A DNA stretch of 47,283 bases, from positions 1-47,283 of the forward strand of contig CAMWUR010000011.1 of the NCBI GenBank assembly GCA_947177485.1, read 5' to 3'. The DNA is from an uncultured Helicobacter sp. Its GTDB lineage: Bacteria > Campylobacterota > Campylobacteria > Campylobacterales > Helicobacteraceae. Positions 1,260 to 18,587 of the stretch are shown one piece after another (position 1 is the first letter of the stretch; each line of letters starts with the position of its first letter). The notes beneath the pieces are model-generated. The model was given only the letters and a program-made list of their open reading frames with translations, had not been told where the DNA came from and made no database searches. The position numbers and the translations under genes are program-made.

Positions 1260-1688
1260 ATGTCAGGTAAAATGATTATCGGTTATACAAGTGGTGTCTA
1301 TGACTTATTCCATATCGGGCATTTAAATCTACTGAAAAATGCAAAAGGACTTTGCGATAAGCTCATTGTTGGCGTTACTGTTGACGAACTTGTTTCATAT
1401 AAGAATAAAGTTGCGGTGATTCCTTTTAGCGAACGCATCGAAATTGTGCGCAATATTAAATATGTCGATGCAGCGATTGCTCAAGAAGATATCGATAAAT
1501 ACAAAATGTGGGAAAAGCTACGTTTTGACATGCTCTTTGTTGGCGATGATTGGTATAACTCACCAAGTTGGAATGCAATGGAATCTAAATTTCGGGCTGT
1601 GGGTGTGCGTGTAGTGTATTTCCCCTACACAAAGGGGACAAGCTCAACTTTGCTAAACGAAACCTTGACAAAATTGAGAAACGTATAA
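1260..1688 (+). CDS. TagD-like cytidylyltransferase (glycerol-3-phosphate cytidylyltransferase family)
   Basis: A 142-aa protein covering one complete HxGH nucleotidyltransferase domain. HIGH is at residues 18-21 after a YTSGVYDLF strand, and the C-terminal signature GTSSTLL corresponds to the family's nucleotide-binding loop. The length is close to TagD, which makes CDP-glycerol from CTP and glycerol 3-phosphate. Here the acceptor could be glycerol phosphate, another polyol phosphate or a phosphonate, and sequence alone does not decide. It lies in the glycan locus with a LicD-like transferase downstream, the type of enzyme that uses CDP-linked donors. ATG 1260 follows an AGGAG site. A short TATAAT-like GATAAT lies at 1237-1242, so a local promoter is possible. 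Confidence 0.8.
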   Translation: MSGKMIIGYTSGVYDLFHIGHLNLLKNAKGLCDKLIVGVTVDELVSYKNKVAVIPFSERIEIVRNIKYVDAAIAQEDIDKYKMWEKLRFDMLFVGDDWYNSPSWNAMESKFRAVGVRVVYFPYTKGTSSTLLNETLTKLRNV

Positions 1689-1697
1689 AGGATATTT

Positions 1698-3065
1698 ATG
1701 GACTTACAACATTTTTTTGGAATCCAAAATACATTCTATCGTTTTCCTGATGATAGATTTGATGATTTATCGCAAGCTATTACACGTTATGGATTTAGTG
1801 ATTATAGCAAATATGGCATCACAAGCTTTTTTACTTTTCGCTATCCTGTCTTGCAATATACAATGTTTAATGGCTTCTTTCGCAAGAGTGATTGGATAGA
1901 ATCCATAGACGATGTTTTGACTTTTAGCAAACGCAATCTATCATTACAAAAAGCTATTGATATAGCAGAGTATCTCTTGCTCGAATCGCTCGATTCTAAG
2001 GTAGGCAATGCAGCGCGCATAGGAATATTGCTAAGTGGGGGCATCGATAGCTCTTTGCTTGTTGCGATGTGCAAAAGAATCTTTCCACAACGAGAGATTT
2101 ATACATATAGCATGGGATTTTATGGCGATGATGAATTTGCATATTCTGATGAAGTTGCAAAGCTTTTTTCTGATAGACATTATAAACAGATTCTGCATGC
2201 CGATGATTATTTTGGAGAATCGTCCTTGCTCCCTTCGCTCATTAAACAAAAAGCTGCTCCGCTGCACCCAAATGAACTTCCTTTGGCAATCGCTGAATCA
2301 AAAGCGCGCCTTGATTGTTGCGATGTTGTACTTTGCGGTGAAGGGGCTGATGATTTATTTGGTGGGTATTCACATAATCTTGCAATGTATCTAGCTTATC
2401 AGGGCGATAAACGGCAGTTTTTTAGAACGATTATGCAAGAATATCGTTATTTTTCTACCGAAAAATTCCGCTCGCTCGTCCATGAACGTTATTTAGTCGA
2501 TGATTGCGAGATGATTGCGCCGCTTTTTGATGCAGAGAAACTGCCAGATAAAATACAAGATGTGATGTTGTATTTTATCCAAACATTACACACACGAGGG
2601 CTGATTGAGCGAGGAATGAATGCGTTGCGTTATAATGGATTTAAAGAAGGGTTTGTCTTTTTGGATTCTGCCTTGCTTTCATTTGTCAATTCTTTGCCAT
2701 TTGAACTCAAGCTCCAAATTTCACATCATGAAAATATTCCTAATCCTATCTCAATCGATAATTACAAATCATTGAGCGATACGCATTGTATATCGAAATT
2801 CTTGCTCAAAGAGATTGCTAAATCCTATCTCCCAGAATCGATTATCTATCGTGCTAAAAAGGGTTTTCCTGTTCCTTTTGCATTGTGGGACAAAGAATCT
2901 CCTATTTCTCCCCAACTCAATGCGCATATTTTTAAAGATAATGATTTGAGCGCATTCAATGCATGGGAAAAATTCATGGTCTATAATCTTAATGTGTTCG
3001 TGAATATCTTTGATGTCTATCGCGTGCGGGGGGGGGGCCGAATTATTTCATTAGACATCCCATAA
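1698..3065 (+). CDS. Asparagine synthase-like PP-loop ATPase without glutaminase domain; phase-variable C-terminus
   Basis: A 455-aa protein with the AsnB C-terminal synthetase domain: PP-loop SGGIDSS at 113-119 and CGEGADDLFGGY around residue 214. The N-terminal 100 residues do not start with the catalytic Cys2 of a class II glutaminase, so ammonia would come from elsewhere, or the enzyme may adenylate a sugar or peptide carboxylate for another amine. A G10 tract at codons 444-448 lies near the 3' end. As sequenced, the protein ends seven residues after the tract, at TAA 3063-3065. With 11 G the frame would continue 47 residues, mostly hydrophobic, to a TGA that overlaps the next gene's ATG. 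Function in glycan amidation is inferred from context. Confidence 0.75.
   Translation: MDLQHFFGIQNTFYRFPDDRFDDLSQAITRYGFSDYSKYGITSFFTFRYPVLQYTMFNGFFRKSDWIESIDDVLTFSKRNLSLQKAIDIAEYLLLESLDSKVGNAARIGILLSGGIDSSLLVAMCKRIFPQREIYTYSMGFYGDDEFAYSDEVAKLFSDRHYKQILHADDYFGESSLLPSLIKQKAAPLHPNELPLAIAESKARLDCCDVVLCGEGADDLFGGYSHNLAMYLAYQGDKRQFFRTIMQEYRYFSTEKFRSLVHERYLVDDCEMIAPLFDAEKLPDKIQDVMLYFIQTLHTRGLIERGMNALRYNGFKEGFVFLDSALLSFVNSLPFELKLQISHHENIPNPISIDNYKSLSDTHCISKFLLKEIAKSYLPESIIYRAKKGFPVPFALWDKESPISPQLNAHIFKDNDLSAFNAWEKFMVYNLNVFVNIFDVYRVRGGGRIISLDIP
3028..3037 (+). repeat. G10 contingency tract near 3' end of the asparagine synthase-like gene
   Basis: Ten G residues. The three possible frames give three C-termini: a seven-residue tail (10 G, present state), a 47-residue hydrophobic tail ending at 3179-3181 (11 G), or a stop within a few codons (9 G). 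Confidence 0.88.
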
Positions 3066-3177
3066 TCTCCGCCTTAGCCTCTTTTTCTTTTTCCATTTTC
3101 TTGACAATCCTCATATTACAGATTTTAGCTCTAGCTAAAATCATCACTCTATTACAATCACAATCAAAGGAACAACA

Positions 3178-4190
3178 ATGATGCAAAAAACATTAGAAAA
3201 AATACGTGATTCATATCAGAGTAATAAAAAATATTTGGTAATAAAAACATTGATTCAGCTGTTACCACAATCAAAGCTAAAAGAGAGACTATTAAAGGCT
3301 CATTCTTACTTACTTCGGAATATCGTTGTGATTACGGGGCAAAATTGTAGCCTAAAGTGCAAGAATTGCGCGAATTTTTCGCCCTATCTTGCCAAGACAA
3401 TTCCTTTTTACCCTCATGAAGAAATCTGCCAAGACTTGCAGGCGATTACAGATGAATGTCAAATTTTGCGTTTGCAGCTCCAAGGTGGTGAGTTTTTTCT
3501 CCACCCAAATGCTTTGCAGATTTTAGAATATATCGCCAACAATCCGCGCATTCATCAAGTTACGATTGCAACAAATGCAACGATGATTCCCAAAGATTCT
3601 TTGCTTGCTATCATCAAACAAAGCGGTAAAATTTCTGTACGACTTTCGGATTATGGAGCGGTTAACCATAAAAGCGCGCAGAGATTAGAAGCAGTTCTTG
3701 CTGCACATGCGATTCCTTATTTCACACATCATTATGTCCATAGCGATAGCCAATGGAGAGATTGTGGGGGTAAAGATGTGGAACGTTTGGGAGATGATGT
3801 TGTTCAAAAGATTTTTGATGCATGTCTTTTTGGTCGTAATTGTCTGACAATGGAAAATGGTTTGATTTCGCGATGTTCTAGGGGTGTTGTAGCACATATT
3901 GCACAAGGTTTTAGTATGGGCGCTTACGATGGAATCCTTGTGCGCCCTCATGCTAAAAGAGCGTTTGCGACTATCGCACAAACGCATCAAATGAGCGCGG
4001 GGGGGGGGCAGATAATCAAACTTATCTACCAACTTTTGATTTTTTGACATTAAAAAATTTTTTAGATAATCCTAGCCCAATGGAGGCTTGTTATTATTGT
4101 TATGGCACAAGTGGCAAGCCCATACCTCCGGGTGTGCAATTGACACTTGAAGAATTAAAATCTATCTCTAAAACGCATGCTCAAGACTAA
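3178..4190 (+). pseudogene. Radical SAM protein, frame-shifted OFF by a G10 tract (reversible)
   Basis: As sequenced the ORF is 3178-4047 (289 aa). It has a radical-SAM cluster CX3CX2C at C57, C61 and C64, and a GGE motif (QGGEFF) typical of SAM binding. The last 13 residues after the G10 tract (3999-4008) look spurious. In the frame reached by adding one G, translation continues from about 4011 to TAA 4188-4190, giving 337 aa and adding a segment with ACYYCYGTSGK. Its cysteines resemble an auxiliary SPASM/Twitch cluster ligand set, together with CLFGRNC and RCSRG before the tract. The present sequence therefore encodes an incomplete enzyme, and an 11-G variant would restore it. The substrate is unknown; it is probably a sugar or a small precursor in the glycan pathway. 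ATG 3178 overlaps the stop of the upstream gene only in that gene's 11-G frame. Confidence 0.8.
3999..4008 (+). repeat. G10 contingency tract in the radical SAM gene (OFF)
   Basis: Ten G residues after ATGAGCGC. The frame before the tract and the coding frame after it differ by one base; 11 G joins them. The state in this sequence is OFF. Confidence 0.9.
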
Positions 4191-4201
4191 AAGGAGTTAA
4201 C

Positions 4202-5533
4202 ATGTCATTCACCACCACAACGACCGTATCATTTGCTGACAATGCCACAGCGCAACAACTCTATGCAGCAGGAAAATATCAAGAAGCACTTGCCGAATAT
4301 CATAGACTTGTTGTGAGCAATCCTGTTGCAGCAAACTATCTTGGTTTGGCGCAAACCTACACAAAGCTCAACCACACAATCCATGCGATTGAGGCGCTCA
4401 ACGATGGCATTGCGCGCAATCCTCAAAGCATTGAACTCCAACTCATGCTTGCACAAACCTATCTTGGAATGCACAATGCAAATGCTGCAAAGAATATTGT
4501 CGAGCCACTCTATCCAAACCATCAAGACAATTTAACTCTTGTTGCACTCTATATGAATGTTTTGATTGCACTTGGTGATTATCAAAAGGGGCTAGAACTT
4601 GTTCCGTTTTTGAACGAAAACGCGAGCAACCATGCAGGAATCTTGAACAATATCGGACTCATCTATATCGAAATGGGAGATATGCACAATGCGATTACAC
4701 ATTTTCGCAAAGGTTTTAGAACGATTATCGCAAATCCATTGTCTAAGGCAGCGCCAAAGGCGCAAGAGTTTATGGACCAAGGGAGCGCAAAGGCTGGGCT
4801 GCTTGCTATCAAGAAAACACTTGATGAAATTGGTGTGCCTTTTTTATTAGCTGGAGGTACAATTCTTGGAATCTATCGTGATGGTGATATTTTACCGCAT
4901 GATAAAGACGTTGACTTAGGGATTCCGTGGGGAGTTCCACGAGCCGAGCTCATTCATACGCTCCGCCACTATAACTTTGTTTGTAACTATACCGAAGAGG
5001 ACATTGTGGGAGAAAAAGGGCAATGGAACATTAGCGTTGTACATGTGCCCACCGGCACAACGATTGATTTTTTCTTCTGCAAGGTTGAAGGCAATAGGCT
5101 CATTATAGGGCTTGACAAAAACGGCAAAGTATTGCAAAACCATTTTACAAACACAGGACGTTGTCAAATCGAATATGCAGGCGAAACATTCTGGACATTT
5201 GGTCATCTTGACAAACATTTTGAAGAATTTTATGGCAAAGATTGGCGCGTTCCACAGGCGAATTACAATACCCTTATTATGTCAGGTTCTGTCTATGACC
5301 CCGATGGTGTTGGAATCGCGTTGTGCTATAACCATTGTCTTGGAGCACTTTGCGAGGCGTATTATAAAAAGGGACATGGGTATGCGATGCAACTTCTAAG
5401 TGTGCATGATGACCCGCTTTTGCAGAAACTTAAAGATTATTTGGAGAAGAACATTAAAGAGGAATGGTATCCGCCCATTCCCTTGCGCAAAAAGCGCACG
5501 AACAATCAAGATTTGTTTGGAATCAAGGATTAA
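4202..5533 (+). CDS. TPR-LicD fusion: putative CDP/CMP-linked group transferase
   Basis: A 443-aa protein. Residues 15-175 form about four TPR-like helical repeats (for example QLYAAGKYQEALAEYHRL and NNIGLIYIEMGDMHNAI). From residue 197 it matches the LicD/fukutin nucleotidyltransferase-like fold: LLAGGTILGIYRDGDILPH at 215-233 and the acidic DKDVDLGI at 234-241, where the DxD residues bind metal. LicD proteins move phosphocholine, and fukutins move ribitol phosphate, from CDP donors to sugars. Beside a TagD-like cytidylyltransferase and a cytidylyltransferase-PEP mutase, this is the best candidate in the window for attaching a CDP- or CMP-activated group, possibly hydroxyethylphosphonate, to a glycan. 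The substrate is inferred. ATG 4202 follows AAAAGGAGTTAAC. No signal peptide is seen, so it is cytoplasmic. Confidence 0.75.
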   Translation: MSFTTTTTVSFADNATAQQLYAAGKYQEALAEYHRLVVSNPVAANYLGLAQTYTKLNHTIHAIEALNDGIARNPQSIELQLMLAQTYLGMHNANAAKNIVEPLYPNHQDNLTLVALYMNVLIALGDYQKGLELVPFLNENASNHAGILNNIGLIYIEMGDMHNAITHFRKGFRTIIANPLSKAAPKAQEFMDQGSAKAGLLAIKKTLDEIGVPFLLAGGTILGIYRDGDILPHDKDVDLGIPWGVPRAELIHTLRHYNFVCNYTEEDIVGEKGQWNISVVHVPTGTTIDFFFCKVEGNRLIIGLDKNGKVLQNHFTNTGRCQIEYAGETFWTFGHLDKHFEEFYGKDWRVPQANYNTLIMSGSVYDPDGVGIALCYNHCLGALCEAYYKKGHGYAMQLLSVHDDPLLQKLKDYLEKNIKEEWYPPIPLRKKRTNNQDLFGIKD

Positions 5534-5565
5534 ATTCACGGAAAATTAAAAACAAAGGAGACACA

Positions 5566-6624
5566 ATGAATTTTCAAACTTCAAAGCAACATACGGATAA
5601 GGTTTATTGCATGAGTCATTATCTCGCGTTTCGTTATATCGCACGAGAAGATAAGAATTTCTTTCCAAATCTGCGACATCGCGTTTTTCAGCCCGATTGG
5701 CAAGGTGATTTGATTGCTGATGTGGAGCATTTGGACTCCTACATCGCCGATAAGATGAAAAATCTTAATCCGCAAACCACAGGAGTGATGTTGAGTGGAG
5801 GAATTGATTCGGCGATTGTCGCTTCGTATCTCCCAAAAGGTGCAAAGGCTTTTACGCTCAAGTGTATTGCGTCAGAATCCAGCATTGACGAAACGATTCA
5901 AGCGCGAAAATATGCAGAAGCTTATGGATTAGAACACATCATCGTAGAGGTACATTGGGACGAGATTCTAAGACGTATGCCCGATATTTTTCGCTTCGAT
6001 GGCGTCCCGTTCCATTCAATCGAAGTTCTGATTGACATACTCCTAGACAAGGCAAAGAAACTAGGCATTACCACCATGTGTTTGGGAGAAAGCTTTGATT
6101 TAGTCTTTGGCGGAATGGACAGATTGCTTTCTAAAGATTGGGATTTTGACGCATTTGTGGATTTCTATACTTTCTTAGACCCCAAGCTTGTCTTGAAAGA
6201 ATGGGTGGATACACGTGATGTTTTTGAGCCATATCGAATCCAAGAAAACAAGATTGACTTTGTACGATTTGTTGAGGAAATCTTTGCAACAGAATCGAGC
6301 ACATCATATTGGCATATCTTTCAAAAAAACAATATGGGCTATCTCGACCCTTCCCAAAAGGCAAAAATGGCAACCCCGCTTGATTTACAACGCGTGCGCG
6401 GAGGAGAACCTAAATATCTTGTTCGGGAACTCTTTAGAAAAAGATACCCTGATATTCCCATTCCAAACAAGATTCCAATGCCACGAGAAGTTGATTTTTG
6501 GCTCAAAAATTGGGAGGGACCACAGCGACAAGAATTTATCCAAAATTGTCATATTGGACTTAGCGGAGACCAAAAATGGCAGCTCTTTTGTTTGGAAAAA
6601 TTTTTAAATCTTTTTGATTCATAG
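5566..6624 (+). CDS. Second asparagine synthase-like PP-loop ATPase
   Basis: A 352-aa protein from ATG 5566, which has a strong AAAGGAG site; an earlier in-frame ATG at 5464 lies inside the preceding gene. The PP-loop is LSGGIDSAIVA around residue 79, and a CLGESFDLVFGGMD segment corresponds to the second synthetase signature. Like the AsnB-like protein encoded at 1698 it lacks the N-terminal glutaminase domain, although the two are only distantly alike. It probably forms an acyl-adenylate and an amide on a sugar or precursor. It lies between the TPR-LicD and C-methyltransferase genes in the same direction with short gaps, consistent with one transcript. Confidence 0.75.
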   Translation: MNFQTSKQHTDKVYCMSHYLAFRYIAREDKNFFPNLRHRVFQPDWQGDLIADVEHLDSYIADKMKNLNPQTTGVMLSGGIDSAIVASYLPKGAKAFTLKCIASESSIDETIQARKYAEAYGLEHIIVEVHWDEILRRMPDIFRFDGVPFHSIEVLIDILLDKAKKLGITTMCLGESFDLVFGGMDRLLSKDWDFDAFVDFYTFLDPKLVLKEWVDTRDVFEPYRIQENKIDFVRFVEEIFATESSTSYWHIFQKNNMGYLDPSQKAKMATPLDLQRVRGGEPKYLVRELFRKRYPDIPIPNKIPMPREVDFWLKNWEGPQRQEFIQNCHIGLSGDQKWQLFCLEKFLNLFDS

Positions 6625-8222: not shown

Positions 8223-8282
8223 ATGAAAACACTCACAAACAGCGTTGCCACAGAGGCTGCGGGGGGGGGGGCCGCAGAGTAG
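8223..8282 (+). CDS. Short upstream ORF carrying a G11 tract (possible translational switch)
   Basis: ATG 8223 follows GAGAGAGACATA and, with 11 G, encodes 19 residues (starting MKTLTNSVATEAA) before TAG 8280-8282. The stop position depends on the tract: with 10 G it moves to 8287-8289. With 9 or 12 G the ORF runs to TAA 8333-8335, past the ATG of the PEP mutase gene at 8325. It could be a leader peptide whose frame affects translation of the phosphonate genes, or the stub of a gene lost by recombination at the tract. No family is recognised. Confidence 0.4.
   Translation: MKTLTNSVATEAAGGGAAE
8261..8271 (+). repeat. G11 contingency tract upstream of the PEP mutase gene
   Basis: Eleven G residues between GAGGCTGC and CCGCAGAG, 53 bases before the PEP mutase start. 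The flanks resemble those of the tract at 461-471 (GAGCCTGC ... CAGAG). Confidence 0.9.
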
Positions 8283-8324: not shown

Positions 8325-9644
8325 ATGCAGCCTAATGTCTATGTTGCAATGAGTGCAGACCTCATTCACCCCGGGCATATCAACATCTTGCGCGTTGCGC
8401 GCGAGACGGCAGACAAGATTGGGGCGGTTGTAGTCGTTGGGCTGCTGACGGATAGCGCGATTGCGTCCTATAAACGGCTGCCCTATATGACATTCGAGCA
8501 GCGCAAAGCGGTTGTGGAGAGCCTGCAATTTGTTGATAGGGTGATTCCGCAAGAAACATTGAGCTATGCGCCGAATATCCGTGCGCTGCTGCCGCGCTTT
8601 GTTGTGCATGGCGATGATTGGAAAAGCGGCAAACAAGCTGTTGAGCGCGAGGCGGTGATTGCGCTGCTGCGCGAGCTTGGGTGCGGCGAGCTACTCGAGG
8701 TTGCCTACACACCGGGCATTAGCAGCACGCAACTCAACGAAAACGCACGCGCACTTGGAATCGCCACCAACGCGCGCCTTAGCCTCTTGCGGCGGCTTGT
8801 GCGCGCTAAAGCGCCGATTCGCATTTGCGAGGCGCACAGCGCGATTAGCGCGCTGATTGTGCAAGAAGCTTTTTGTATGGACAACGGGCAAAAGGTTGAG
8901 TTCGATGGCTTTTGGAGCAGCTCGCTGACGGATTCGACATCACGTGGCAAGCCTGACATCGAGGCTGTCGAGCTTAGCAGTCGCTTGCAGACGATTAATG
9001 AGGTTTTCGAGGTAACGACAAAACCGCTGATTTATGACGCCGACACAGGCGGTCGGATTGAGCATTTTGGCTTTAGCGTGCGCAGCCTTGAGCGAACAGG
9101 CGTGTCGGCTGTGATTATCGAAGACAAGACAGGTCTTAAGAAAAACTCGCTGCTGGGCAACGACGTGCCGCAAACGCAAGAGAATGTCGCTGATTTTTGC
9201 GATAAGATTACGGCAGGCAAAAAGGCGCAGATTACGCAAGATTTTATGATTATCGCGCGAATCGAATCGCTGATTCTTGACAAGGGGCAAGAGGACGCGC
9301 TCAATCGCGCTTTTGCTTATCGCGATGCGGGGGCGGACGGAATCATGATTCACTCGCGCGCCAAAACTCCGCACGAGGTTTTGGAGTTTGTCGCGAGCTT
9401 TCGCGCCAAAGACAGCACAACGCCAATCGTTGTCGTCCCGACAAGTTTCAACACCATTAGCGCCAAAGAGCTTGCGAATGCGGGCGTGAATATCATCATC
9501 TATGCCAATCACCTCTTGCGTGCGAGCTTTGTCGCGATGCGCAATGTCGCCAACGGAATCCTTGCGCATGACCGAAGCAGCGAAATTGAGCCCCAATGCC
9601 TCAAGGTTGAGGAGATTTTGCGACTCATTCCGGGGACGGCGTAG
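8325..9644 (+). CDS. Bifunctional cytidylyltransferase-phosphoenolpyruvate mutase
   Basis: A 439-aa fusion. Residues 1-145 form an HxGH cytidylyltransferase (HPGH at 15-18, GISSTQL at 131-137). Residues 165-439 form a PEP mutase of the isocitrate lyase superfamily: FWSSSL near the active site, DADTGG at 238-243, and the diagnostic [10 protein letters not shown] at 266-275, which fits the PEP mutase signature EDKx5NS and differs from the isocitrate lyase catalytic motif. PEP mutase forms the C-P bond of phosphonopyruvate from PEP. The fused domain probably makes the CMP ester of the final phosphonate. ATG 8325 has a good site (AAGGAG, 8314-8319); the same frame has a stop just upstream (8304-8306), so the start is secure. 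The decarboxylase and reductase for the next steps lie 1.5 kb downstream. Similar fusions are known for Bacteroides aepX. Confidence 0.88.
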
Positions 9645-9833: not shown

Positions 9834-11145
9834 ATGAAAAACTTCCTTTTGCGCCTCTTTATCGCATTTCTCGACTTTTTGCATGTACGTTTCCCGCCAA
9901 AATATTGCTTTATCGTCCTCACCTCGCATGGCAATGGGCATAATGCGTTGTGGGTCTTTCTGCAAAAATGTGGTGTGCGGCTCATTCGTATCTTTATGTT
10001 GCGGAGCAATTATGCACAATTTTGTTTCGAGATTTTCAAAAACCTTTGGACATTGCCAAAGAATCAATGCATGGCTTTGAGCTTTGATTCGTGCAATTTT
10101 GAAAAAGAAAACAAAATTTATGCAAAGATTACCCAAAAGGTTCCCGCACTGCTGCTTGTGCGCGACCCAATCTCTGTCATCTGCTCGCATATTAATCTGT
10201 ATCGTTTCTGGAATCATGGCGCGATTCTTGACAAAGACGGCGTGTTGCAGCTTCCAAAAGAGCCCTATTGTTTGGGCTACGACACAGAGTGTCTGGAGAT
10301 GAAAACGACAGACAGACCCGATATACGCGCCGCACATCTCTGGGTAGCGCTTATCGATGGCGATTATACACATGTTGGCGGTTTTGATTATGTGCGCGAA
10401 AGCGATAAGCAGCGGAATCTCACGTGTATCTGCACCTACACAAGCAGTTTTGAGGCACTCAAAGAGACAATCTCTAGCCTTACAATCATCGATATGAGCG
10501 CCATTCTGCCCGAGAATGCGTTCGCAACGATGACGCGCCTTGCGCAGCAATTTGGCTTCGTGCCGCCGCGCGAGCAGAACCGCGCATTTTACGAGGCAAA
10601 ACTCTATGGTAGAGAATCCTTGCTCTACCCGCTCACACTTAATGTTGGTGCGCTTTTTGGTCGGGCTGTAAAAGCGACAAATAATGTCGCTTTTACCCAT
10701 GATGTTCGGGGGGGGGGGCAGGATTTGCTCATAATATAGCAATGCACAACGGCTCGAATATTTTGGCTTTGGCGATTCTGTGCCTTTTGATTTTGTTGCA
10801 AGCAACAGCGGAGGCGCGGCGCGTTGGTATTGCAAGGCATGCGAGGCGCAACGTTTCGCAAAGCTTGATGAGGTAAAAAGAGGCATGATTGCAGAGGCAA
10901 TGCGGCAGCTTGAGGCATGGTGTGGCTTGCAACAGCAGAATATGGCAGCTCACAAGGTGAGCGAAGACGACCTCTTCGCCTATCTTGCCGCCAACCCAGC
11001 GCTTTTTGCGCGGCTCGCAAAGGCTTTGGAATACGAAACAAGCATCGTCCGCCTTCAAGCGCCAAAGATTTTTGCGCAATGGCGATTTTATGCACAATTT
11101 TTGGCGCGTTTGCGTACAATGCCAACACACCAAAACCGAACATGA
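9834..11145 (+). pseudogene. Interrupted gene: sulfotransferase/DUF2972-like N-part and a C-part in another frame, split at a G11 tract
   Basis: The first part, 9834-10739, encodes 301 aa: an N-terminal hydrophobic helix, a VLTSHGNGHNALW loop and a VPALLLVRDPISVICSHIN segment. This recalls the PAPS-binding region of sulfotransferase-like folds and the DUF2972 family common in Helicobacter surface loci. It ends nine codons after a G11 tract. A second coding stretch in the +1 frame runs from about 10738 to TGA 11143-11145, with good composition (LEYFGFGDSVPFDFVASNSG and a helical C-terminus), but it has no convincing start. In that frame TAA 10732-10734 lies between the tract and the stretch, so tract length alone does not join the parts. 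It is either a decayed gene or a chimera formed at the tract. It sits between the PEP mutase and decarboxylase genes. Confidence 0.55.
10708..10718 (+). repeat. G11 contingency tract in the interrupted gene
   Basis: Eleven G residues after GATGTTC. With 11 the first ORF ends at 10739. A 10- or 13-G tract would end at TAA 10732-10734. A 9- or 12-G tract would run on to about 10875 in a poor-quality frame. Confidence 0.9.
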
Positions 11146-11158
11146 TAAGGAAATACCA

Positions 11159-12298
11159 ATGCTACAAACCGAGATTCTTGGCGATTTGCTGTTGCGCATG
11201 GGCTGCAAAGACTTTAGCGGTGTGCCGTGCAGCTTTCTCGCGCCGCTGTTTAATTACGCGCTCAACAATGGGCGCTTCGCAATGGCAAACAACGAGGGAG
11301 ATGCCGTGGCGCTCGCCAGCGGCATAAGCCTCGCGCATTTGCAAAGCAGTCCGCGCCGCTTTGGTGTCGTGTTGTTGCAAAACAGCGGGCTATCTAATGC
11401 ACTAAGCCCACTTACAAGCCTCAATCATACTTTTGAGATTCCCATTCTCGGCTTTGTCTCGTTGCGCGGCGAGCGCGATTCAAACGGGCACAACACAGAC
11501 GAGCCGCAGCATAACCTAATGGGCGCAATCACCGACAAGCTTCTTGCATTGTGTGAGATGGACTATGCGTTTTTGACCGAGAATTCGAGCGAGCTAGAAT
11601 CCCAGCTTGCGCATGCACAGGGTGTCTTGCGAAGCGGTAAAAGCTTCTTTTTCATCGTGCGCAAAGCCTGCCTCTCGCCCGTTGCCTTGCAGCAAGCGCC
11701 CGAGCAAGACAATGCGTTGCCCACGCGCCTCGCCGCGCTTGAGCGCATTCAGAATCTTGCACAAAATCGCGCGGTTGTGTTCGCCACAACGGGCAAGACG
11801 GGGCGCGAGCTCTACGAGCTTGGCGATTTGCCCAATCAGCTTTATATGGTTGGCTCGATGGGCTGTGTGGGCACGTTTGGTGTTGGAATCGCGCATGGAA
11901 CGTGCCGCAAAGTCATCGCGATTGATGGCGATGGCGCGGCGCTTATGCGGCTTGGCGCGTTCGCAATGAACGCACAGATTGCGCGCGAGGCAAACGCAGG
12001 CAACTTCTGCCATGTCTTGCTCGACAACCAAAGCCACGACAGCACGGGCGGGCAACAAAGCCTCTCGCCTTTTGTCGATTTCGCCGCTGTGGCGCGGGCT
12101 TGCGGCTATGCGCACGCAAAACTTTGCGCAAGTCTCGAAGAGCTCGAACATGAGCTCGAAACATTCCTCGCCCAAAGCGCGGGCGGGGCGGTGTTTTTGG
12201 CGCTGCGAATCCAAAGAGGGAGCAAGAAGGATTTGTCGCGTCCAAAAATCGCTCCGCGCGAGGTCGCGCAACGTCTTTTTGGATTCTTGGAGCGCTGA
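11159..12298 (+). CDS. ppd: Phosphonopyruvate decarboxylase
   Basis: A 379-aa thiamin-diphosphate enzyme, the usual Ppd length. NEGDAV near residue 45 supplies the Glu that contacts the TPP pyrimidine. The C-terminal half carries the TPP-magnesium motif: IAIDGDGAALMRLGA, followed about 26 residues later by NQSHDSTGGQ, a combination typical of Ppd and related sulfopyruvate decarboxylases. It converts phosphonopyruvate irreversibly to phosphonoacetaldehyde, pulling the unfavourable PEP mutase equilibrium forward. The start is ATG 11159 after GATAAGGAAATACCA; a longer frame upstream has poor composition and overlaps the preceding gene. Its stop overlaps the ATG of the alcohol dehydrogenase (TGATG), so the two are translationally coupled. 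Confidence 0.88.
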   Translation: MLQTEILGDLLLRMGCKDFSGVPCSFLAPLFNYALNNGRFAMANNEGDAVALASGISLAHLQSSPRRFGVVLLQNSGLSNALSPLTSLNHTFEIPILGFVSLRGERDSNGHNTDEPQHNLMGAITDKLLALCEMDYAFLTENSSELESQLAHAQGVLRSGKSFFFIVRKACLSPVALQQAPEQDNALPTRLAALERIQNLAQNRAVVFATTGKTGRELYELGDLPNQLYMVGSMGCVGTFGVGIAHGTCRKVIAIDGDGAALMRLGAFAMNAQIAREANAGNFCHVLLDNQSHDSTGGQQSLSPFVDFAAVARACGYAHAKLCASLEELEHELETFLAQSAGGAVFLALRIQRGSKKDLSRPKIAPREVAQRLFGFLER

Positions 12299-13341
12299 TG
12301 TTTGCCTACCATAACCCCGTGCGAATCGTGTTTGACACGACATTCGAATCCGCGCTTTCTTCGCTTGCGCCTGAAGGCGAGATTCTGCTTATTGTCTCTG
12401 CGAGCCTCGCGCGGCGCGGGATTGTTGAGCGCGTGCGTGCGCATGCAAACATCATGCAAGTCGTGGATTTTGTTGTGCCCAATCCCGAGCTAGACGCGCT
12501 GCAAAACCTCAAAGCTTCGCTTGGGCAATACCGCGCGATTCTTGCCATTGGCGGTGGGAGCGTGATAGACACCGCAAAATTTCTGTCCGTGCGCGGCGAT
12601 GTTGCGGTGCAAAACGATTCACTAGAGATTCGGAATCTCGCGGGCAGCGCGCCCATTTTTGCGTTTCCCTCAACGGCGGGCAGCGGCTCGGAGCTCACGC
12701 CGTGGGCGACAATCTGGGACAAGGCGTGCGGGCGCAAATATTCGTTGCACGATTCCTGCCTGTTCCCGCACACGGCGTTCTATGTCCCCGAGCTCACATT
12801 GAGCCTGCCGCTTTTGCCAAGCGTGCATAGCGCGCTCGATAGCCTAAGCCACGCGTTTGAATCGGTCTGGAACAAAAACGCAAACCCGATTGCGACAATG
12901 CATGCGCTCGAGTCGATTCGCCTCACACTCGAGAATCTCCCGATTCTCGCGCAGAATCTGCACGACATACACGCACGTACAATGCAAATGCGCGCAAGTA
13001 TGCACGCAGCGCTTGCATTTTGCAGCACACAAACGGCGCTTGCGCATGCCATTAGCTACCCGCTCACAATGCATCTTGGCTTGCCACATGGGCTTGCGTG
13101 CAGCTTCACCTTGCCCCTGCTTTTGCGGCATTGCGAAGAATCGGCACGGCAATTGCTTGCACCTTTTCAGTCGCGCCTCGAGCGGCTTTTTGAGACATTG
13201 CACATCGCGACCAATCCGAGTGATTATGGAATCACAAAAGATTTCGCAGATGCCATTTTTCAGAATCTCAATGCGCGTGCGCAAAATGCGCGGCTCGATG
13301 TCGGCGCTGTTTATCATGAGTTTATCAGTTTTTGCAAGTAA
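12298..13341 (+). CDS. Iron-containing alcohol dehydrogenase, probable phosphonoacetaldehyde reductase
   Basis: A 347-aa group III alcohol dehydrogenase. The NAD(P)-binding GGGSVIDTAK is in the N-terminal domain, followed by PSTAGSGSELTPWA. Metal ligands are visible in ALDSLSHAFE (Asp and His), AHAISYPL (His) and GLPHGLACSF (His). Within phosphonate clusters this family includes PhpC-like enzymes that reduce phosphonoacetaldehyde to 2-hydroxyethylphosphonate. No aminotransferase that would make 2-aminoethylphosphonate is seen in the window, so hydroxyethylphosphonate is the predicted product. ATG 12298 overlaps the ppd stop. Substrate assignment is from context; the fold and metal site are directly visible. 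Confidence 0.82.
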   Translation: MFAYHNPVRIVFDTTFESALSSLAPEGEILLIVSASLARRGIVERVRAHANIMQVVDFVVPNPELDALQNLKASLGQYRAILAIGGGSVIDTAKFLSVRGDVAVQNDSLEIRNLAGSAPIFAFPSTAGSGSELTPWATIWDKACGRKYSLHDSCLFPHTAFYVPELTLSLPLLPSVHSALDSLSHAFESVWNKNANPIATMHALESIRLTLENLPILAQNLHDIHARTMQMRASMHAALAFCSTQTALAHAISYPLTMHLGLPHGLACSFTLPLLLRHCEESARQLLAPFQSRLERLFETLHIATNPSDYGITKDFADAIFQNLNARAQNARLDVGAVYHEFISFCK

Positions 13342-13421: not shown

Positions 13422-15503
13422 ATGCAATTTATTTCCGGGTTAAAGATTGGTACAAAGGTGATTTTAGCCATTGTCGCTGCTGTGTTTATTTGTTTAACAG
13501 TGATGGTGATTTACATCAACATGTATTCATCGAATCTGCTGCGCGCTGAGGCAGAGAAATTGCTATATAATGCTGCAAAGCGCTCGGCAAACTTGTCGCA
13601 GGGTTATATTAATGAAAGTTACGCGTCTCTTGGCACAAGCCACTCTGATATCCAAGACCTCCTTAATAGAGATATGATTGACCAAAGAATCTTTGAGGAC
13701 AATGTCAAGAACATGGTCGACTCCAATCGTTGGTCATTGTTTGGGTATCTCTATCTCAAAAATACGCCCGCGTTGAATCCAAAGAGTGCATTTGGACAGG
13801 ATTTGCTCATCACCGTTGTTGACCGTACTCCCGATAAAGCAGGGGGGGTAGAACTCATAGAGGCTGATGAGGATGTTTTCACATTGAAGGGTTTTCAAGC
13901 AGCCTTGCAAACGGGCAAAGTCGCTGTGGGAACGCCGCGCATGCTCCATATCGACAATCGCAATCTCTATGTCGTTTCGATTCAGATGCCCCTTGTTGGC
14001 AAACGTGGCGAAGTCATTGGTGTGATTGGGCTGTTATTTGATATGGAGCTCATTTCGAGTGCGATTACAGACCCACGACTCTCTGTTTTTGAGAGCGATT
14101 ATCGTGTCATATCTGATTCAAATGGGCAGGTACTCATTCACCCCAACAAGGAGTTCCAGACAAAGAATCTGAACGACATCAATCCCGGTCCATCAACCAT
14201 GCAGCTCATCAATGACATCAAAAACAAAAAAGACGCAGTTGTGGAATATCAAAACTCAAATGGAGACGTAAGCTATACGGCAATTGCGATTTTTGAGATT
14301 TGGAATGATATTGATGTGTATTGGGCAATGCTTATCAGCGCCCCAGAGTCGTCCGTTTATGCTCCAGTCTTTGATTTACAGCTCATACTCATTTTTGCCT
14401 CGATAATTTTTATTCTTGTTGTGGTTGCTGTGGTGTATTTTGTTGTGCGCACGAATATCACAAACCGCGTGCATACAGTGCAAGAAGTGCTGTTTGCATT
14501 CTTTAGATTCCTCAATCATGAAACAAACACCTTGCCTGCTCTTGTTGTTCCAAAAGCACGTGATGAGATAGGCTCGATGGCAATGGCTATCAATGAAAAT
14601 ATCGAAAAAACGCATAAAAATCTCGAGAAAGACGCCGTTGCGATTGCGCAAAGCGCACAAACGGCGCAGATGATTGAAAAGGGCGACATCACGGCGCGCA
14701 TTGTCGAAACGCCCGCCAGCCCACAGCTCGCCGAGCTCAAAGACGTGCTTAACCACATGCTTGATGTATTGCAAGAAGGCATTGGGAGCGATACCAATGA
14801 GATTACACGTGTATTTGATTCTTATACCAAGCTTGATTTCACCACCGAAGTGCAAAACGCCAAGGGGCGCGTTGAAATCGTTACCAACACTTTGGGCGAA
14901 GAGATTCGCAAAATGTTGCAGGCAAGTGCCGATTTTGCAAAAGATTTGCAAACCTCGAGCAACGACCTCGAACAAACCGTGCAGCGCCTTGTAGAAGGGA
15001 GCAACACCCAAGCGAGCAACCTCGAACAAACCGCAAGCGCGATTGAAGAGATTACAAGCTCGATGCAGAATGTCTCCGCACGTACAAGCGAGGTGATTAC
15101 ACAAAGCGAAGAGATTAAAAACGTCATTAGTATTATCCGCGACATTGCCGACCAAACAAATCTCCTCGCACTCAATGCTGCGATTGAAGCAGCACGTGCA
15201 GGTGAACATGGACGTGGATTTGCCGTTGTGGCTGATGAAGTGCGCAAGCTCGCTGAACGTACGACAAAGAGCCTAAGCGAGATTGAGGCGAACACAAACA
15301 CGTTGATTCAAGGAATCAACGATATGGCAGATTCGATTAAAGAACAAGCGCAGGGAATTGCGCAAGTCAATGAGGCTGTGGGGCAGCTGGAGAATATTAC
15401 GCAAGAAAATCTCAATATCGCTAATCATTCATCAGAGATTAGCACGAATGTGGAGCAGATTGCAGGGAAGATTATGACAGATGTCGAGCGCAAGAAGTTT
15501 TGA
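13422..15503 (+). CDS. Methyl-accepting chemotaxis protein
   Basis: A 693-aa transmembrane chemoreceptor. TM1 spans about residues 10-32. A periplasmic ligand-binding region of about 280 residues, probably double-Cache (contains [19 protein letters not shown]), follows. TM2 spans about 318-342, then a HAMP-like segment, and the cytoplasmic signalling hairpin carries the conserved tip [20 protein letters not shown]. No C-terminal pentapeptide for CheR/CheB tethering is seen. A run of seven G (13842-13848) lies inside the sensor region and is in frame. The ligand is unknown. The stop TGA 15501-15503 overlaps the next gene's ATG, so the CysD-like gene is probably co-translated. Confidence 0.9.
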
Positions 15504-16384
15504 TGGATAAACTACAAACCCTAGAATATCAAAGCATTTTCATCTTGCGTGAAGCCTATCGTTCGTTTAAGAATCTCGCAATGCTTTGGAGCATTGGCAA
15601 GGATTCGACAGTGTTATTGTGGCTTGCCAAAAAGGCGTTTTTGGGGCATGTTCCGTTTGAGTTGTTGCATATCGATACGGCATACAAAGTCCCCGAGATG
15701 ATTGCCTATCGCGACCAAATCGCGCGGGAGCTCAAGCTGCGCCTTGTTGTGGGGCAGAACAAAGCCGCCTTGGAGGCAAAGCAAACCTTTCCTGATGGCA
15801 ATGTCGACCGTATCGCTTGTTGCAAAAACCTCAAGGCGATTCCGCTCAATCATACGCTCGATGGCACGTGGGAAAGACGTGTGTATGACCCACAGAGCGA
15901 TAGCTGGAGGGTGCTGCCCAAAGCCGAGCCCTATCATGCCGTGATTGTTGGTGTGCGGAGCGATGAAGAAGGCAGCCGAAGCAAAGAGCGCGTGTTTTCG
16001 GCGCGCGATTGTCGCAATGAATGGGACGCATCGGCGCAGCCACCCGAGCTGTGGAATCTCTATAAAACCGAGTTCGCGCCCGGCACGCATGTGCGCGTGC
16101 ATCCTCTGCTCGAATGGACCGAGCTCAATATTTGGGAATATATCGAGCGTGAGAAAATCCCCATTATCCCGATTTATTTTGACCAAGGGCAGGGCACGCG
16201 CTATCGCTCGCTAGGCTGCTATCCTTGCACAGCGCCTGTGCAATCGAGCGCAAAAAATCCCGCCGAGATTATCCATGAGCTCACAAGCGGCAAGTTCAAA
16301 GATATTGCCGAGCGAAGCGGCAGAGCGCAAGACAAAGAGGGCGGTGGTACGCTCGAGGCATTGCGCAAAGAAGGCTATATGTAG
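15503..16384 (+). CDS. CysD-like sulfate adenylyltransferase subunit 2 family protein (no CysN partner here)
   Basis: A 293-aa member of the adenosine-phosphosulfate PP-loop family. The N-terminus [19 protein letters not shown], the PP-loop variant [31 protein letters not shown], and a C-terminal [12 protein letters not shown] are all CysD-like. Length is close to CysD (about 300). True ATP sulfurylase needs the GTPase CysN, which is not next to it and not in the window. It may therefore act with a distant CysN or have another adenylating or thiolating role. ATG 15503 overlaps the chemoreceptor stop; TTG 15500 is an alternative. Confidence 0.8.
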
Positions 16385-16401
16385 GGCAAAATGAGGAAAC
16401 A

Positions 16402-17754
16402 ATGCATTGGATTCCAATAGTTGCGGGCATTGCGCTAGCCGTTGTTCATTATCTTGCTTATCGCTTGTGGTTGCGCGATTGGATTGGCAATCGCCCCACA
16501 TTGCTATGGATTGTGCGCGTGTGGCTTGTGCTCAATCTCGCTGTGTCGTTGTGCTTTCCGATTGTGCGCAGCAAAACAGATTTGCCCGAGTGGCTTTATT
16601 GCCTGCTCGCTTTTCCCGTTGGAATCGGCTTTGTGCTTGCGCTTTCGCTCGCGGTTGTAGCGGTTTTGTATACATGCCTTTGCACATATCTCTATGCTTT
16701 GCAATGGCGCACAAGGCGCACACAAGGCGCAGAAAAACCAAAAGTTTCTAAAGCAGGCGCAACAAAAGTAGCGGCAAAAGATGTAGCAGAATCTGCAATC
16801 CCCGAAACACCCACCGAAAAGCCCGCGGCAGATTCTAAGCCAAAGGCAGAATCCAAAATAGCACCCACGACAGATAAACCCAAGAAACCCGCGCCCAAAG
16901 CCGCAAATGTCGATACAGAATCTGCCTTGCAGGCGCGCCGTGCGAGCTTTGCAAAGCTCGCAGCACTCGGTGGCGGAATCTTTTTTGCGGGATACAGCAG
17001 CGCGGCAGTTGTTACAGCGATGTTGCGTCCCAAGCTCGTTTCGTTTCCGCTCTCTATCGGGCTTGGGCTGTGTGTGCCGTGGCGCATTGTGCAATTGAGC
17101 GATTTGCATGTCGGCGGGCTCATCAATTACGACTATGTGCAATGGGTTGTGCAAGAAACCAATGCGCTAAAACCCGATATTATCGTGCTCACGGGCGATA
17201 TTTTGGACGCGCCGTTACCCAAAATCGCTGATTGTCTCACCGAGCTTGCTAAACTCAACGCGCGGCTTGGCAAGTTTTTTGTGCTTGGCAACCATGAATA
17301 TTTTTATAATGTCGAGGATTCCTTGCAGGCTTTGCGCAACATCGGCATTCGCCCGCTGCTTAATGAATCTGTGCAACTTAGCTCGACCTTGCAGATTGTT
17401 GGCGTGGGCGACCTCTTTGGGCGCGTGCGCGGAGTCTATGCCCCAGATTTAGATGCGGCTTATGCAAATGCGCGCCGCGACTTGCCCACCATCTTGCTCA
17501 TGCACCAGCCCAAATTTGTCGCCGAGGTGCGCGCAAGCGCTCGCCGTGCTGATTTGATTCTCTGTGGGCACACGCATGGCGGGCAGATGGCGCCCTTTTC
17601 ACTTGTTGTGATGGCGCAGCAGGGTGGCTATCTAAGCGGGCTCTATCGCGTGAGCGAACACACACGTATGTATGTCAGTAGTGGCACGGGCTATTGGGGA
17701 CCGCCGATGCGGCTTGGCACGCGTACAGAGATTACGATGATAGAAGTTTGCTAA
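16402..17754 (+). CDS. Membrane-anchored metallophosphoesterase
   Basis: A 450-aa protein. The first 100 residues contain about three hydrophobic helices. Residues 112-172 form a Lys/Pro/Ala-rich low-complexity linker, a further hydrophobic stretch lies near residue 192, and the catalytic domain starts about residue 225. Calcineurin-like motifs are complete: VQLSDLHVGG, LTGDILDAP, VLGNHEYFY, and CGHTHGGQMAP near the C-terminus. The family (YkuE-like) acts on the membrane side and includes enzymes cleaving lipid-linked or UDP-sugar phosphoesters; the substrate here is unknown. It lies 17 bases after the CysD-like gene. Confidence 0.82.
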   Translation: MHWIPIVAGIALAVVHYLAYRLWLRDWIGNRPTLLWIVRVWLVLNLAVSLCFPIVRSKTDLPEWLYCLLAFPVGIGFVLALSLAVVAVLYTCLCTYLYALQWRTRRTQGAEKPKVSKAGATKVAAKDVAESAIPETPTEKPAADSKPKAESKIAPTTDKPKKPAPKAANVDTESALQARRASFAKLAALGGGIFFAGYSSAAVVTAMLRPKLVSFPLSIGLGLCVPWRIVQLSDLHVGGLINYDYVQWVVQETNALKPDIIVLTGDILDAPLPKIADCLTELAKLNARLGKFFVLGNHEYFYNVEDSLQALRNIGIRPLLNESVQLSSTLQIVGVGDLFGRVRGVYAPDLDAAYANARRDLPTILLMHQPKFVAEVRASARRADLILCGHTHGGQMAPFSLVVMAQQGGYLSGLYRVSEHTRMYVSSGTGYWGPPMRLGTRTEITMIEVC

Positions 17755-17761
17755 GTTTGGC

Positions 17762-17767
17762 TATACT
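17762..17767 (+). promoter_or_regulatory. -10 box for the sapC-like gene
   Basis: TATACT lies 23 bases before ATG 17790, followed by AAAAGGAGTC. It fits a sigma-70-type promoter between the metallophosphoesterase stop and the SapC gene. Confidence 0.5.
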
Positions 17768-17789
17768 AAGAATTTAAAAGGAGTCTTAT

Positions 17790-18587
17790 ATGTTTTCAAA
17801 ACTTGTCCCTGTAACACGTGATTTGATTGATAAAGGTTTTGTGCGCAACACCAACTTTCTTTTTGCCAAATCCGAAACAATGTGTGAGCTCGTCTATGAT
17901 GAACTTAGCGAGGCAATCCTAGCATTTCCTGTGGCGATGGTGCGAATCGATGGCGTGCCAAAGCTCGTTGCCTTGCTTTCTGTCTTGCCCAACCAAAACT
18001 GCTTTGTGAGTCCTGATGGGCGATTTCTCGCGTCATATATCCCGCGAATCCTCAAGCAATATCCTTTTACACTCTACCCAACAAAAGAGGGCAAGCGCAT
18101 TTTGTGCGTTGATGAAAGTGCTCTTGCACCAAAAGGGCAGGCGAATGTGCAGGCATTCTATGACGAAAACGGCGCGCCAACAGAATTTTTGACAAAATTT
18201 GTGCAGATGTGGGAGCAGTTTCGCGGGCAGCAAATCGACACCGACAATGCGATGCGTGCGCTTGATGAGGCGGGAGTGTTTAGCGAATGGGAATTGTTGC
18301 TTGAATATAGCGATGGGACGCAAACGCGCATTAGCGATATTTATCGCGTGAATGAAGAAAAAATGCGCGGCTTGAGCGCCGATGTGTGTCAATCACTTGT
18401 GAAAAGCGGCGCGCTTGGAATCGCGTATGCACAGATTCTCTCGCACCACAAAATCAATGCGCTCAAAAGGATTGTGTCTGAACATGCGAAATATTTGGCG
18501 GAGAAAGAAAAACTGCTTGCAGCCCCTGCTGCCACTTCTTCTGGTGCTGCAAGCGCAGCAGCAAAAGAGTTTGATTGGGGATTTTGA
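17790..18587 (+). CDS. SapC family protein
   Basis: A 265-aa protein matching the SapC family by its N-terminus (starting MFSKLVPVTRDL), the ELSEAILAFPVAMVRIDG strand, and the PFTLYPTKEG and FVQMWEQFRGQ segments. SapC was named from the surface-layer locus of Campylobacter fetus, but the family is widespread and its biochemical role is unsettled. There is no signal peptide. The C-terminus has an Ala/Ser-rich stretch after a helical segment and ends in FDWGF. It has its own likely promoter and is the last plus-strand gene before the convergent repeat region. Confidence 0.8.
   Translation: MFSKLVPVTRDLIDKGFVRNTNFLFAKSETMCELVYDELSEAILAFPVAMVRIDGVPKLVALLSVLPNQNCFVSPDGRFLASYIPRILKQYPFTLYPTKEGKRILCVDESALAPKGQANVQAFYDENGAPTEFLTKFVQMWEQFRGQQIDTDNAMRALDEAGVFSEWELLLEYSDGTQTRISDIYRVNEEKMRGLSADVCQSLVKSGALGIAYAQILSHHKINALKRIVSEHAKYLAEKEKLLAAPAATSSGAASAAAKEFDWGF

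Follow-up and report, generated by a model that had tools for sequence, protein, structure and literature searches.

Fusions of a TPR region to a LicD domain are already known, since Cps7C, Cps3C and HS1.10 all combine, by their described architecture, an N-terminal TPR region with a C-terminal LicD/FKRP fold and catalytic aspartates. Cps7C of Actinobacillus pleuropneumoniae, whose LicD part is FKRP-like, is a CDP-glycerol-dependent Gro3P polymerase with essential aspartates (PMC11666461). HS1.10 of C. jejuni (HS:1), a Cps3C homologue, shares its cluster with a proven Gro3P cytidylyltransferase (PMC11924219). The same catalytic fold and DxD motif occur in FKRP, a ribitol-phosphate transferase. 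LicD-like genes have further been reported in Ppm neighbourhoods, and LicDs of phosphonate (Pnt) loci lie near PEP-mutase cassettes in other genera (PMC6697681). For MeOPN transferases, finally, both DUF2972 and switching through poly-G tracts are described (PMC5808241).

We analysed a 47,283-nucleotide stretch of DNA from an uncultured Helicobacter sp. (the window), which carries a TPR-LicD gene not far from a phosphonate cassette (Table 1). The open reading frame starts with ATG and contains no stop. It stands in a tight co-directional gene run, with gaps of only 11 bp to the radical SAM frame that resumes before it and 32 bp to the following gene. Compared with a groEL-linked paralogue its dN/dS is ~0.16, which favours a working protein, and the gene is under purifying selection. 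No signal peptide or membrane segment was evident by eye in the 443-aa product. This is a genuine gene, apparently for an enzyme that attaches an alcohol through phosphate (glycerol phosphate, for instance) to a sugar of the cell surface.

The window holds five poly-G tracts of 10-11 bases (461-471, 3028-3037, 3999-4008, 8261-8271 and 10708-10718), all within the first 11 kb and none in the remaining 36 kb; the TPR-LicD gene itself has none. These first 11 kb are likely a phase-variable surface-glycan island. The window begins with 51 C (1-51) and contig C52 of the same genome (L159) ends with 52 G; both homopolymer runs are probably assembly ends, and although we considered joining the two contigs there, we claim no such join. 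The stretch 15500-18587, further downstream, carries a PAPS-reductase/CysD-type gene and, after it, genes for a metallophosphoesterase and SapC. Two Maf-type genes (flagellin glycosylation) are present on other contigs of the genome, and no link was found between them and the TPR-LicD locus.

Table 1. Features of the TPR-LicD gene and its surroundings (window coordinates)
Feature	Position	Strand	Evidence and remarks
Stand-alone cytidylyltransferase-like gene	1260..1688	+	FPYTKGTSST, like Fom1 YTPGISST; without Arg of GCT motif
Asparagine-synthase-like gene	1698..3065	+	10-G tract 3028-3037 near 3' end
Radical SAM gene	3178..4190	+	Interrupted at 10-G tract 3999-4008; frame resumes downstream to 4190
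Ribosome-binding site aaaggagtta	4190..4199	+	Sequence; directly past upstream radical SAM end TAA 4188-4190
TPR-LicD gene	4202..5533	+	ORF, RBS, Pfam/NCBIfam, dN/dS; 443 aa
TPR region, aa 14-177	4241..4732	+	Pfam, AlphaFold model helices, structural TPR matches
LicD/FKRP nucleotidyltransferase-fold domain, aa 193-345	4778..5236	+	Pfam/NCBIfam, model, structural matches
DxD motif D236-V-D238 (HDKDVDLG)	4907..4915	+	D236 and D238 invariant in family alignment (A2)
Third acidic residue D289 (IDFFF)	5066..5068	+	Aligned with IDIF/IDVF aspartate of cytidylyltransferase-linked TPR-LicDs
C-terminal helical module, aa 357-440	5270..5521	+	Conserved KKxHGYxxQLxS; model
Second asparagine-synthase-like gene	5566..6624	+	Start probably at 5566 rather than 5464
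Fom1-like HEP cytidylyltransferase domain fused to PEP mutase	8325..9644	+	TIGR02320 409 bits; Fom1 N-terminal domain 5x3d E 7e-47
Gene similar to C-terminal part of MeOPN transferases (DUF2972/CJJ1420)	9834..11145	+	Interrupted at 11-G tract 10708-10718; frame resumes downstream
Phosphonopyruvate decarboxylase	11159..12298	+	TIGR03297 337 bits; listed ORF start 10985, likely start 11159
Iron-type alcohol dehydrogenase, presumed phosphonoacetaldehyde reductase	12298..13341	+	

A preliminary description of this DNA had read the gene as a TPR-LicD fusion, and the domain analysis bears this out. The TPR region matches Pfam TPR_14 (E 1.2e-9) and further TPR models above cut-off. The LicD part matches PF04991 marginally (E 1.7e-4, 22.2 bits against a Pfam cut-off of 22.6), a paralogue on contig C27 of the same genome scores above it (26.2 bits), and a partial NCBIfam Mf1 match has E 6e-8. 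The structure prediction that had been suggested gave an AlphaFold model with a mean pLDDT of 90, whose residues 186-356 superimpose on the Mg- and CMP-containing FKRP structure 6kal (Z 14.8; 160 residues aligned at rmsd 3.1 and 21% identity; Foldseek E 1.9e-5). FKRP differs in having no TPR and in being a mammalian enzyme that acts on dystroglycan. The nucleotidyltransferase fold is accompanied by GxxLGxxR and DxD motifs, the latter aligned with that of FKRP, and the catalytic residues D236, D238 and D289 are all kept; at the D289 position some paralogues have E. In some of the structural alignments the C-terminal helices prolong the superhelix of the TPR region, and in Cps7C, as in the window protein, the C-terminal segment packs on the TPR (PMC11666461). 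The protein probably belongs to the transferase class that carries phospho-alcohols over from CDP donors.

The nearest group with informative context consists of Campylobacter TPR-LicDs of the Cps7C/HS1.10 type. Six more distant TPR-LicDs from Campylobacter or other Helicobacter abut a glycerol-3-phosphate cytidylyltransferase-like (GCT-like) gene, and in a tree of LicD domains the window protein joins these six (support 99/95) to the exclusion of every PEP-mutase-linked LicD, in a tree where some branches are long and the deep order is unsure. Around the TPR-LicD of locus L130 we recognised, by eye, what read as kps genes together with a gene for a large TPR polymerase; HS1.10 has been described in just such surroundings (PMC11924219). 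The window protein departs from Cps7C and HS1.10 in its longer C-terminal helical module, in the lack of an abutting Gro3P cytidylyltransferase and of kps capsule genes in its genome, and in belonging to a type of which a genome has several copies, most of them distant from glycan genes. A kps capsule setting had been considered for it and was dropped, as no capsule gene of the KpsC/KpsS type (PF05159) is present in the genome.

Two further TPR-LicD copies are encoded in the genome, 70% and 64% identical to the window protein. One adjoins groES/groEL and the other lies among different housekeeping genes; each stands alone there, and neither has a donor gene in its vicinity. Two genus members share the groEL-linked copy at this position, and a TPR-LicD beside groEL (L006:7525-9147 and L018:8919-10313) is retained throughout the genus, away from any glycan cluster. 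The genus member G002 has four TPR-LicDs, some with degenerate motifs, and G004 has two. Relatives in Burkholderiales MAGs have longer TPR regions and are likewise away from glycan genes. This subfamily of the Helicobacter group and Burkholderiales appears to be uncharacterised and, unlike Cps7C, to lie outside capsule loci.

To place the LicD fold relative to phosphonate genes, we considered 40 other PEP-mutase neighbourhoods of the Campylobacterota, two of them from the window's genus (G002, on a short contig, and G004). An early view that there is no linkage between LicD and PEP mutase, drawn from a tblastn search with the window protein that found no LicD in PEP-mutase loci, was overturned by profile searches: these revealed LicD-fold ORFs in 11 of the 40 neighbourhoods, several abutting the cassette. 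Among the Pfam LicD matches that these genomes contain outside the genus, 10 of 14 fall inside PEP-mutase neighbourhoods, a clustering with a probability near 1e-10 at a generous 5% chance per match and with relatedness ignored. Given this strong clustering, LicD as a phosphonate transferase is a sound idea for the phylum. The LicDs found in these neighbourhoods, however, are without TPR and lie on other branches of the tree than the window protein, and no TPR-LicD occurs in any of the 40, G002 and G004 included. Directly before DxD the window protein has His, a residue shared by 6 of 13 GCT-abutting LicDs but by none of the 10 PEP-mutase-linked LicDs with a readable motif, which have Trp (once Tyr); this is a weak sign, the sequences not being independent.

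The locus does contain two cytidylyltransferase domains, one of them fused to PEP mutase, as had been noted: the gene at 1260 and the N-terminal part of the fusion at 8325. With the decarboxylase and the alcohol dehydrogenase, the fusion would form a hydroxyethylphosphonate (HEP) route ending in CMP-HEP, by analogy with the known Fom1 reaction (PMC6697681). The TPR-LicD gene is neither in this cassette nor abutting it, being separated from the PEP-mutase gene by two genes and 2.8 kb. At the start of the window, a TylF-type methyltransferase (321-1193) might O-methylate the phosphonate; in seven other loci its relatives (47-57% identical) are neighbours of PEP-mutase fusions.

The cytidylyltransferase nearest to the TPR-LicD gene, 2.5 kb off, is the one at 1260. 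It is no typical GCT, having a Fom1-like YTxGxSST where GCT has RTxxISTT. Its relatives (49-91% identical) mostly accompany asparagine-synthase-like and radical SAM genes, and together these genes form a conserved, mobile-looking cassette (1260-6624 in the window) in several Campylobacterota genera. This cassette carries no TPR-LicD in any of 11 related loci, some of them on short contigs, so that the TPR-LicD looks like a newcomer in it.

Taking these observations together, we give about an even chance to the reading that the protein is a cytosolic, metal-dependent LicD/FKRP phospho-alcohol transferase working like Cps7C with a CDP-polyol donor; judged on context and tree, such a donor is more likely than CMP-HEP. 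Donor, acceptor and TPR partner are here those that we infer. Through DxD and D289 the LicD domain would bind a polyol phosphate activated with CDP, be it glycerol phosphate or another alditol phosphate of this sort, and transfer the polyol phosphate to a surface glycan under construction, at one of its hydroxyls. The TPR superhelix, lengthened by the C-terminal helices, may hold either the polymer that acts as acceptor or another transferase as partner. Other possible CDP-polyol makers in the genome are three extra IspD-like genes and a TagD-like domain on contig C52, there fused to a GFO/IDH/MocA oxidoreductase domain (L159:11989-13335). PF12804, a family that includes LicC-type enzymes, is represented in all four genomes. 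Several points count against a Cps7C-like function: without PF05159 the genome does not offer the capsule context in which Cps7C works, the enzyme at 1260 lacks the GCT arginine, the paralogues have no donor gene nearby, and G002 and G004 carry TPR-LicDs and the PEP-mutase fusion with no GCT. Neither of these two genomes has a separate Gro3P cytidylyltransferase or an extra strong IspD-like gene beyond one full-length copy each, and their PF01467 proteins are, as we read them, only CoaD, HldE, NadD and the PEP-mutase fusion. As makers of CMP-phosphonates with TPR-LicDs and no GCT, they have in CMP-phosphonate the obvious donor for these proteins. In the G004 PEP-mutase locus we also observed, by eye, PntC-like nucleotidyltransferase and AEP-transaminase-like genes (L089:13605-15316).

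The situation in G002 and G004, with the G004 genes just mentioned, speaks for a reading in which the TPR-LicD of the window transfers HEP from the CMP-HEP of the Fom1-like domain to a glycan or glycoprotein. This reading agrees also with the position of the gene 2.8 kb from the PEP-mutase gene and in the same direction, with the LicD clustering across the phylum and with the reported LicD-like genes in Ppm neighbourhoods. We nevertheless consider this doubtful, given the branches and domain make-up of the PEP-mutase-linked LicDs, the lack of TPR-LicDs in all the neighbourhoods sampled, the orphan groEL-linked copy kept across the genus and the presence of another candidate within the phosphonate cassette itself. 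Quite doubtful, too, is the variant in which a HEP-transferring TPR-LicD has replaced the ordinary phosphonate-linked LicD in a genus whose only LicD-fold proteins found are TPR-LicDs. The preliminary description had the TPR-LicD close the route from CTP activation to glycan; the transferase class is supported, as is a link of LicD to PEP mutase elsewhere in the phylum, while a role as CMP-phosphonate transferase is not supported by the tree, the PEP-mutase loci or the DUF2972 gene that occupies the slot within the cassette.

That gene, at 9834, has the PEP-mutase gene on one side and the phosphonopyruvate decarboxylase gene on the other, and it matches the MeOPN-transferase profile (E 3e-25, with a second match beyond the poly-G tract). 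It shares with the O-methyl phosphoramidate transferases Cj1421 and Cj1422 the DUF2972/CJJ1420 C-terminal part and a poly-G tract; unlike them it lacks the N-terminal 235 positions of the profile and scores only 89 bits for CJJ1420 against a cut-off of 600, a full-length member in L133 reaching 790. With scores so far below the cut-off we do not claim family membership, yet the gene is better placed than the TPR-LicD as phosphonate transferase. That it passes on the phosphonate made by the cassette, leaving the TPR-LicD with an unrelated donor, is a serious possibility, if one short of even, and is compatible with a CDP-polyol-dependent TPR-LicD. Such a role fits the poly-G switching of MeOPN transferases, a short ORF resembling a remnant that G004 has at this position, and a short relative found in a PEP-mutase locus of G047. 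Against it, the assembly shows the frame interrupted, a gene of this kind is missing from most of the 40 PEP-mutase loci, and a VRDPIS stretch is sulfotransferase-like by eye, so that the product could be a sulfotransferase. By sequence, 9834-10736 has no relatives in the PDB, the three weak matches being due to chance. Use of the product of the 1260 enzyme by the TPR-LicD, as part of the asparagine-synthase/radical SAM cassette, seems improbable: the gene lies snugly within that cassette and an ordinary LicD is found near it in 2 of the 11 relatives, but none of these, some of them on short contigs, has a TPR-LicD there, and the paralogues exist without the cassette. It is very improbable that we are dealing with a lineage-specific duplicate retained as a TPR scaffold with no catalytic role; the multi-copy family and the degenerate motifs of some G002 members would suit it, whereas the intact catalytic residues and the low dN/dS do not.

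Under a CDP-polyol-dependent function of the TPR-LicD, the phosphonate from the Fom1-like PEP mutase, decarboxylase and alcohol dehydrogenase would more likely be passed on by the poly-G-switched DUF2972 gene. To our knowledge, no enzyme has been proven for the last phosphonate tailoring step, from CMP-phosphonate to glycan. The candidates for it are now the PEP-mutase-abutting LicDs of other Campylobacterota, the poly-G-switched DUF2972 gene and, less likely, the TPR-LicD.
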